A stretch of DNA of 64,000 nucleotides from Acinetobacter sp. XS-4 (GTDB lineage Bacteria; Pseudomonadota; Gammaproteobacteria; Pseudomonadales; Moraxellaceae): positions 1,798,001-1,862,000 of the forward strand of contig NZ_CP094657.1 of NCBI RefSeq assembly GCF_023920705.1, given 5' to 3'. Positions 50,212 through 51,288 of this stretch are shown here, one piece after another; the first letter of the stretch is position 1; the number at the start of each line of letters is the position of its first letter. The position numbers and the translations under genes were made by a program. The notes below the pieces were generated by a model, which made no database searches, was not told where the DNA came from, and saw nothing but the letters and a program-made list of their open reading frames with translations.

Positions 50212-50240
50212 TTGACACCTTAAATATTGCAGATTACCAT
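50212..50240 (+). promoter_or_regulatory. Candidate promoter of the structured RNA
   Basis: -35 TTGACA, 17-bp spacer, -10 TACCAT, directly in front of the first hairpin of the structured RNA. Consensus -35 and ideal spacing; -10 moderate. Confidence 0.6.
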
Positions 50241-50245
50241 TTGCG

Positions 50246-50430
50246 GGCTGGCCTACATTGCCAGTCGGTTTTGACGGACCGTTTATTCGACCACATCAGA
50301 TTATTCTTTCTGAGGAATAGTTTCATGTGCGCACCTCGTTCCCTCCCGTAGCGGTAGGACGGGAGTGGGACACTTTCGAGTGTGCTGGATGTCGAAACCA
50401 GTCCGTCAACCCGTTTCCGTTCTGCCACCA
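50246..50430 (+). ncRNA. Highly structured RNA, C4 antisense RNA-like
   Basis: A GC-richer island in AT-rich surroundings, with no convincing protein frame, that folds well by eye. Hairpin GGCTGGC/GCCAGTC (50246-50266); a closing helix TTGACGGAC (50271-50279) with GTCCGTCAA (50401-50409); inside it CTCCCGT/ACGGGAG (50343-50365) and a UUCG-capped ACACT/AGTGT hairpin (50370-50383). Then GTTCTGCC (50419-50426) is exactly complementary to GGCAGAAC (50447-50454), just before the ribosome site of an 18-codon ORF. This matches the logic of the phage P1/P4 C4 antisense RNA, which pairs with a leader downstream in the same transcript. The C4 name is a resemblance; the structure itself is seen. Confidence 0.6.
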
Positions 50431-50454
50431 TAATTTATAATGTTTCGGCAGAAC
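50419..50454 (+). promoter_or_regulatory. Complementary pair flanking the small ORF leader
   Basis: GTTCTGCC (50419-50426) and GGCAGAAC (50447-50454) are perfectly complementary over 8 bp, 20 nt apart. They can form a local hairpin or allow a processed upstream RNA to pair in trans with the leader nine bases before AAGGAG. Confidence 0.6.
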
Positions 50455-50476
50455 TCCCAAAAGAAGGAGTTGGCCC

Positions 50477-50533
50477 ATGCACATTCATAAATTATTGGCA
50501 GTCATTGTCAAAATCTATATCGACACAACTTAA
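50477..50533 (+). CDS. Small hydrophobic peptide ORF (18 aa)
   Basis: ATG at 50477 is preceded by AAGGAG (50464-50469) at 7-nt spacing, one of the best ribosome sites in the window, and encodes MHIHKLLAVIVKIYIDTT before a TAA. The core LLAVIVKIYI is hydrophobic like type I toxin peptides, though shorter and flanked by His and Asp. The leader is complementary to the structured RNA just upstream. It could instead be a leader peptide of a remnant phage immunity operon. No known homologue is recalled. Whether it is translated is untested. Confidence 0.45.
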   Translation: MHIHKLLAVIVKIYIDTT

Positions 50534-50727
50534 ATCACTTTAAAACAGTTTGATCGCTATTACGCTTATCGGACTTTAAATCGTCACGACTAAAAAACTT
50601 AATCAACAATGAAACTTGAGATGTGCCAAGCACAGTCTTTATGGCTTTGCTATGCCTTTTTTCTCCCAGAAAGGGTAATGGCTTTTAGATCTCTTTAGAA
50701 ACAACAAGAATGTATAACGGTAAAATT

Positions 50728-51288
50728 ATGCCAACTTTAGAAACATCTTCCAAAAAATTACAGGTTATTCACACTGCAATAGAGCTGTTCAATCTCTATG
50801 GATTCCACAATACGGGCGTGGACTTAATTGCTAAAGAATCCAAAATTCCTAAAGCCACTTTTTATAACTACTTTCATTCAAAAGAGCAGCTTGTTGAAAG
50901 GTGCGTATCTTTTCAAAAAAGCCGATTGAAAGAAGAGGTGCTGGCAATTATTTATTCAAGCCGTTACCGAACCCCAAACGATAAACTCAAAGAGATTATT
51001 GTTTTACATGTCAATTTTAATAGTCTGTACTATCTATTACTTAAAGCCATTTTTGAAATTAAACAGATTTACTCTCAGGCCTACCACATGGCAATTGAGT
51101 ATAGAAAATGGCTGCTTCGAGAACTTTTTGATTTAGTTTTTAGTTTGGAAAACTGCACACTAAAACCCGATGCCAACATGGTTTTAAACTTAATCGATGG
51201 TTTGATGTTTCAGATTTTAAGCTCAAAAAGTTTAGAAGAGAGGGATGTGGTGGTAGGGAGGTTTTTTGGTGGGAAATTAAATAAATAA
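50728..51288 (+). CDS. TetR-family regulator
   Basis: TetR-type regulator of 186 residues from MPTLETSSKKLQVIHTAIEL, with HTH GVDLIAKESKIPKATFYNYF and HSKEQLVERCV. An alternative ATG at 50710 adds six residues; neither start has a strong ribosome site. The C-terminal domain is not diagnostic. It follows the structured RNA/small ORF region by about 195 bp and precedes AT-rich genes of unknown function, and its target is not evident. Confidence 0.8.
   Translation: MPTLETSSKKLQVIHTAIELFNLYGFHNTGVDLIAKESKIPKATFYNYFHSKEQLVERCVSFQKSRLKEEVLAIIYSSRYRTPNDKLKEIIVLHVNFNSLYYLLLKAIFEIKQIYSQAYHMAIEYRKWLLRELFDLVFSLENCTLKPDANMVLNLIDGLMFQILSSKSLEERDVVVGRFFGGKLNK

Follow-up and report, generated by a model that had tools for sequence, protein, structure and literature searches.

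The locus described here probably represents a domesticated C4 antisense operon. It would control a regulator of the TetR family and keep tetR off, probably by premature termination. It lies within the 64,000-nucleotide stretch of the Acinetobacter sp. XS-4 genome that was analysed as a whole and is called the window below. At the sequence level, the architecture of the unit, the matched pairing between C4 and its upstream target and the link to tetR are evident. Processing of C4 at this locus, the off direction of control and termination as its means we infer by analogy with related systems. According to this explanation, one promoter would give rise to an RNA carrying a1/b1, C4, the leader ORF and tetR. 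C4 would be cut out of the leader and bind to a1/b1 on fresh transcripts of the same locus and, by analogy with P1 and P4, this might stop productive transcription or translation before tetR, which would normally be off. In P1, C4 brings about early termination. The leader ORF may act as a ribosome checkpoint rather than encode a toxin, and a′ together with b′ would serve as an address, allowing numerous paralogous units to exist side by side with limited cross-talk.

Organization of the C4–tetR unit

The following features were identified in the window.

50212–50217, + strand: promoter −35 box TTGACA; 10 of 12 consensus positions matched together with the −10 box
50235–50240, + strand: promoter −10 box TACCAT, 17-nt spacer from the −35 box
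50234–50285, + strand: Rfam c4-a1b1 (RF03163) matched weakly, with 20.2 bits (cut-off 46.7)
50246–50266, + strand: Region 1 hairpin with the loop CTACATT (50253–50259), as in the Group 1 sRNAs of A. baumannii
50271–50279, + strand: b1 target TTGACGGAC, complementary to b′
50286–50291, + strand: a1 target TTCGAC, 6 nt complementary to a′, found by eye
50340–50352, + strand: strand predicted to pair with the C4 5′ arm, disrupting C4
50347–50432, + strand: C4 antisense RNA (RF01695), Rfam 57.4 bits, cut-off 45
50353, + strand: possible RNase P site GGT, by analogy with the GGW processing of Group 1 RNAs (PMC5320573)
50391–50396, + strand: a′ loop GTCGAA, pairing with a1
50401–50409, + strand: b′ GTCCGTCAA, 9 bp with b1
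50419–50426, + strand: C4 3′ arm GTTCTGCC, complementary to the leader
50447–50454, + strand: leader GGCAGAAC, exact complement of the C4 3′ arm
50452–50471, + strand: predicted hairpin AACTCC/GGAGTT, covering part of the Shine–Dalgarno site
50464–50469, + strand: Shine–Dalgarno site AAGGAG, 7 nt before the ATG at 50477
50477–50533, + strand: 18-codon leader ORF MHIHKLLAVIVKIYIDTT
50728–51288, + strand: TetR-family regulator gene, 186 codons, Pfam TetR_N 53.2 bits

The order is promoter, a1/b1, C4, leader with the Shine–Dalgarno hairpin, ORF, a spacer of 194 nt and tetR. Use of an in-frame ATG at 50710 would give a TetR of 192 codons. No convincing intrinsic terminator was found between the ORF and tetR, where only a weak TGTGCCAAGCACA stem is present. 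Transcription presumably starts at about position 50247. A scan for promoter-like sites was not above chance (two found versus 4.5 expected in 1.3 kb), and the promoter call therefore rests on recurrence, as a TTGAC box is also located upstream of most other C4 copies of this genome.

All elements named in a sequence-only reading of this region were found in place. The GC-rich island that it noticed has a G+C content of 53% (50246–50432) compared with 38% for the window, and the RNA is indeed structured: the stretch 50228–50560 has a predicted folding energy of −107.8 kcal/mol (z = −5.1), a stability that none of 100 shuffled sequences reached. The Rfam match confirms the RNA as C4-type, its UUCG hairpin is the tetraloop stem of C4, and the long-range 9-bp helix proves to be the pairing of b1 with b′. 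The exact complementarity between the C4 3′ arm and the leader recurs in other copies with matched changes, and the ribosome site and the 18 codons of the ORF were likewise read correctly. The interval covered by that reading ends before the most informative part, the TetR gene, and its interpretation is partly supported, as detailed below.

On the minus strand, an ORF of 65 codons (50234–50431) lies opposite the C4 region and is likely spurious. In A. baumannii, the hypothetical gene ABUW_0220 has been discussed as a possibly misannotated Group 1 sRNA (PMC5320573).

C4 copies and their link to one TetR subfamily

The Acinetobacter sp. XS-4 genome contains 26 C4 copies above the Rfam cut-off, 17 of which each lead a TetR gene. 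Three copies form a tandem array upstream of one C4–tetR unit, five lead a small lipoprotein-like ORF and one (L012) leads something else. The 17 TetR proteins show 42–100% identity to the window TetR, and the next protein follows at 31%. In all 17 members of this subfamily a C4 is located on the same strand, 283–321 nt upstream, compared with 0 of the 39 other TetR_N matches of the genome (one of the 39 being below the Pfam cut-off). The sequence-only reading had considered a P4-like immunity region stranded in the chromosome. Against such a relic speak the 26 copies in the genome, of which the 21 with intact upstream regions keep the matched pairing described below, and no P4-type replication gene was recognized by eye among the ORFs at 44–57 kb of the window. 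The other suggestion, a stand-alone peptide under RNA control, does not agree with an ORF that leads a tetR gene or with the presence of C4 throughout that TetR subfamily.

The same association bears on a possible orphan immunity function, in which C4 would act against incoming phages or satellites by silencing their C4-controlled genes and its link to tetR would be incidental. Such a role is one of the options proposed for the A. baumannii RNAs (PMC5320573), and it would suit the nature of C4 as a phage immunity RNA, the satellite-type C4 loci found in Acinetobacter and the tandem array of three C4 copies that carries no targets of its own. It is very unlikely in view of the 17 of 17 versus 0 of 39 distribution and of a1 targets that match their own C4 far above chance.

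Within the genus, C4 is present in 127 of 149 genomes examined, with 15–26 copies in 15 genomes and 1–10 in the other 112 (up to 27 candidates scored per genome). A comparison sample of 60 C4 loci was taken from the best-scoring matches, high-copy genomes being left out except G065; L077 had no match with the profile and was dropped. In this sample, none of the 59 remaining loci has this TetR family downstream of C4. Behind C4 they carry genes resembling those of phages or satellites, as well as lipoprotein-like and other ORFs. A pattern scan of named genomes yielded 21 loci with the TetR among 77 usable matches (80 listed of at least 112 stretches), and among viral pattern matches one of 105 usable ones carried it. 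As context, a family-wide scan detected C4 in 66 of 199 genomes (up to 20 candidates scored per genome).

Several copies differ in organization from the complete unit. In the tandem array, the three C4 copies have different a′ loops and lack a1/b1 of their own, and they sit just upstream of a complete C4–tetR unit (L018, L007, L003 and L001 together, C1:232520-233098). In L024 (C1:2586465-2586552) and L026 (C1:2798552-2798635), an insertion that looks alike in both seems to have removed the C4 start, the promoter and a1/b1 at nearly the same position; leader, ORF and tetR remain. The lipoprotein-like ORFs of about 94–100 aa behind L005, L009, L014, L017 and L021 form one family. The one member that was searched had no Pfam match, and ORFs of similar appearance lie behind C4 in further genomes of Acinetobacter.

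Satellite- or phage-like C4 loci (L045, L053, L083, L084 and others) occur in Acinetobacter beside the chromosomal type. The genes downstream of these loci appear primase-like or Rha/KilA-like; a 70-aa stretch from one such locus gave a zinc-finger match below cut-off. A phage origin inferred from DNA similarity was discarded: all 28 ‘phage’ records matched carry the name Acinetobacter phage MD-2021a and form two contig sets with pieces of up to 379 kb, which were taken as misfiled bacterial contigs and not used. These records may mislead phage searches. Several ‘plasmid’ matches are chromosome-sized records, and the best match of the window there lies in a 3.97 Mb record.

Matched pairing between C4 and its upstream target

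The stretch following the Region 1 hairpin is, judged by complementarity, the a1/b1 target of C4: in the window, b1 and b′ can form 9 bp and a1 matches a′ over 6 nt. Permutation tests, which ignore relatedness among copies (some relatives have identical loops), support this assignment across the genome. The own a′/a1 match was 17.4 versus 12.8 for permuted partners in 23 own copies (0 of 20,000 permutations) and 16.8 versus 12.7 when all 26 copies were included (also 0 of 20,000). For b′/b1, compared in the 21 copies whose upstream region is intact, the corresponding values were 22.3 and 17.1 (0 of 20,000). Compensatory changes among copies, whose absence would have refuted the sequence-only reading, are thus present: a′ co-varies with a1 and b′ with b1.

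In the window copy and 10 further loci (L094–L103), a′/a1 likewise reached 16.6 versus 12.4 permuted (0 of 20,000). We term these loci close relatives because strict orthology lacks support from neighbour genes: within the flanks compared, the window's upstream gene is found at none of the 10 and a downstream gene at two (L096 and L097). A stretch of 41–59 bp just upstream is common to nine of the 10. Within this group, the leader is largely conserved apart from a few highly variable parts, which include a1 and a′; these two change together, and in L099 both b1 and b′ are altered and still match. In three of the 11 loci (window, L094 and L097), the best-scored a′ stretch falls over b1 and the a1 match comprises 5–6 nt; for the window copy, the automatic scoring took a longer wobble match over b1 instead of the 6-nt a1.

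Each of the 17 tetR units apparently has its own RNA pairing address. The own upstream region was the best or tied target in 13 of 21 copies by a′, in 16 by b′ and in 16 by both. An own target that is best in only 13–16 of 21 copies means that the address is not fully private, which counts to some extent against the C4 operon explanation. The short a1 matches of the three loci and the relatedness ignored by the permutations weigh in the same direction.

Leader classes and the downstream target

A downstream a2 that overlaps the Shine–Dalgarno site is the classical C4 arrangement. Four of the 26 own copies keep it (L001, L004, L008 and L026, with 9–12 pairs), as do many Acinetobacter copies without the TetR and almost all of the viral copies listed; b2 is present in several own copies. 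Over the 26 own copies the downstream test was weaker than the upstream one, the a2 value being reached by 243 and the b2 value by 20 of 20,000 permutations. In the window copy, pairing scored against the relatives revealed neither a kept a2 nor a clear b2; its leader class keeps the intrinsic hairpin AACTCC/GGAGTT. The window a′ can also pair with GTTTCGGCA in its own leader, the match that ranked first by score; this pairing was rejected because relatives, L095 for example, have not retained it.

Having lost a2/b2, C4 of the window class could act only through a1/b1, and the classical P1 block at the ribosome site cannot operate there. This loss also speaks against the C4 operon explanation. 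As a1 and a′ co-vary despite the loss, the a1/b1 pairing seems to matter by itself.

The C4 3′ arm and the leader were also more complementary than expected (own 20.4 versus 16.3 permuted, 0 of 10,000, n = 61). The own leader was the best match of the 3′ arm in only 5 of 61 copies, and some copies have no such complementarity. For the upstream strand that pairs with the C4 5′ arm, 0 of 10,000 permutations reached the observed value, with the own partner best in six.

The 18-codon ORF

The window and its 13 closest relatives all preserve the ORF, in its reading frame, and its ribosome site; one in-frame insertion of 6 nt and three TTG starts occur among them. Of 16 more distant loci, nine were unreadable by the anchor used, one gave no ORF, three have 9 codons and three have other ORFs. 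Other C4 classes of the genome carry unrelated peptides at this position.

Over 23 different ORFs, pN/pS was 1.1 (bootstrap over codons 0.42–3.1), and over the eight sequences of the window's closest group it was 0.99. The frames +1 and +2 gave 0.59 and 0.81, lower than the coding frame. Thus, pN/pS detected no amino-acid constraint on the ORF, with a wide interval that is compatible with constraint. A value near 1 makes a toxin reading unlikely.

A type I toxin–antitoxin system, as raised by the sequence-only reading, would require the 18-aa peptide to be toxic and C4 to be its antitoxin. The peptide is short and partly hydrophobic, it has a strong ribosome site and its frame persists among the 13 closest relatives. 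Given the pN/pS values, the unrelated or 9-codon peptides elsewhere and the continuation of the unit into tetR, we regard this system as highly improbable. The ORF looks instead like a leader ORF, and the data fit a role in which its translation matters more than its product. Azithromycin is reported to raise the activity of the ABUW_1645 gene set (PMC10878099); this would fit control via translation of the leader ORF and is only suggestive.

Alternative folds of the leader

In predicted full-length folds, the C4 stem survived in only two of the 21 own copies and in none of the 32 other copies of Region-1 type, compared with 16 of 22 phage/satellite-type copies; five of the 59 other loci had no recognized b′ and were left out of this comparison. 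Masking a1/b1, to imitate the effect of bound C4, restored the predicted stem, which was then present in 15 of 21, 18 of 32 and 20 of 22 copies, respectively. In own copies, the mean fold gap fell from 6.5 to 0.4 kcal/mol with the a1/b1 mask and to 5.1 with control masks. With slightly longer leaders, again 2 of 21 kept the C4 stem, and the copies that did so unmasked varied with the length folded (L012 and L016 in the longer run versus L002 and L012). Six of 21 own copies, the window included, were not restored by masking: in the window the gap narrowed from 9.5 to 4.4 kcal/mol, and from 7.6 to 0.6 kcal/mol when a shorter stretch was folded. The Shine–Dalgarno site was predicted to be paired (0.73–1.0) in the free leaders of own copies.

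The alternative folds suggest a self-reinforcing switch. Without C4, a1/b1 and their flanks would tie up C4 in the transcript and tetR would be on; in the other state, C4 would occupy a1/b1, new C4 could fold and be excised, and tetR would be off. Each of the two states would perpetuate itself. The disruption of the predicted stem in 19 of 21 own copies and its restoration by masking in 15 point in this direction. The folds are thermodynamic only and contain no kinetics, the window C4 is not restored, and the identity of the stem-keeping copies depends on the length folded. Moreover, a Shine–Dalgarno site predicted to be paired in free leaders too obscures how tetR would be read. We consider such a switch a possible, if doubtful, rival to the explanation given above.

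The Gifsy-1 RNA IsrK, which we take to be related to C4, offers the opposite sign of control. Acting in trans, IsrK turns on orf45-anrP through a shift between alternative structures (PMC4825925), and in a similar way a short C4 might open the leader and turn the ORF and tetR on. A leader with a Shine–Dalgarno hairpin and alternative pairings of the C4 3′ arm would be suited to this mode. In copies that have a2, its pairing would cover the Shine–Dalgarno site, which predicts repression, and the leader folds (as distinct from C4–leader duplex folds) gave no sign that C4 frees that site. Activation of this kind is quite unlikely, and repression by a domesticated C4 operon remains the preferred explanation.

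Relation to small RNAs and TetR switches of A. baumannii

In 2016, Weiss and colleagues (PMC5320573) described 21 C4-like ‘Group 1’ sRNAs in A. baumannii AB5075, which have a CUACAUU loop, are abundant and are seemingly processed at GGW. They share this Region 1 loop and the C4 body with the window unit. The similarity of Region 1 to the P1/P7 upstream sequences was judged to be very limited and, in the available part of that report, Region 1 is not recognized as a1/b1, a leader ORF or tetR link is not drawn and a target is not established. Here, both the a1/b1 assignment and the link are provided, as the locus joins C4 and a tetR leader.

Perez-Varela and colleagues (PMC9802203) have shown that overexpression of any of 11 related TetR regulators can drive the opaque-to-translucent switch. 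Random activation was seen for four of the 11, autoregulation for none of the three tested, and the plasmid sRNA SrvS sets the switching rate. When fused to lacZ on plasmids, each TetR promoter region reflects the on/off state of its own TetR. Fusions that follow the state of their own gene without autoregulation suggest a diffusible, gene-specific factor, and C4 would fit as this factor if the published fusions include the leader. That SrvS, a separate plasmid sRNA, already sets switching rates counts against the C4 operon explanation.

Like the VIR-O/translucent-switch TetRs (PMC9802203), the window TetR belongs to a clade of related TetR genes, with 17 members in the XS-4 genome. The A. baumannii switch TetRs (including the ABUW_1645 clade) were compared with the window TetR by position only. 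The 11 published TetRs and one pseudogene are estimated to lie within 21.5 kb of a Group 1 sRNA, which none of 100,000 random draws matched; for the other sRNAs, the nearest is on average 52.5 kb away. Positions were interpolated from locus tags with one anchor (ABUW_2969) rather than taken from sequences, which weakens this link. A partial literature search, without supplements, found no paper linking C4 to these TetR genes.

Random switching of single TetRs in A. baumannii is only partly explained by the SrvS-dependent rate (PMC9802203), and C4–tetR units may account for the random on/off switching of such regulators. In the most far-reaching version, each of the approximately 17 TetR genes would have a self-reinforcing C4 memory: C4 would promote its own excision and silence its own gene through a fast-evolving two-part pairing code, with heritable random flips without DNA change. 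We regard this as rather unlikely. If true, a single TetR would become heritably switched on whenever its C4 species happened to be lost, without protein autoregulation, and per-gene memories would give combinatorial opacity and virulence states of A. baumannii.

Comparison with known C4 systems

The window unit resembles Gifsy-1 IsrK/orf45/anrP in its alternative leader folds and in the small ORF before the effector gene; it differs in that IsrK activates, is prophage-borne and has other downstream genes. The P4 CI RNA is a processed leader RNA that pairs with seqA and seqC on both sides and causes premature termination (PMC4825925). Unlike in P4, no replication genes of that type are evident by eye around the unit, and the window copy has no downstream target.

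In the immI regions of P1 and P7, C4 is cut from its own operon leader, a′/b′ match the upstream a1/b1, and a small ORF precedes the regulated gene. The window unit shares with this system (C4, icd and ant) the position of C4 in an operon leader, the upstream a1/b1 and the small ORF; an interdependence of c4, icd and ant is named in the title of a reference cited in PMC8546580. It differs from P1 in lacking a2/b2 at the ribosome site and in the 194-nt spacer between ORF and tetR. Unlike P1/P7 immI, the unit is chromosomal and multi-copy, and it leads tetR and not ant, its downstream gene being a TetR_N protein rather than an antirepressor. A phage immunity RNA would have been copied many times and put to new use as a set of distinguishable switches, providing trans-acting, locus-specific control.
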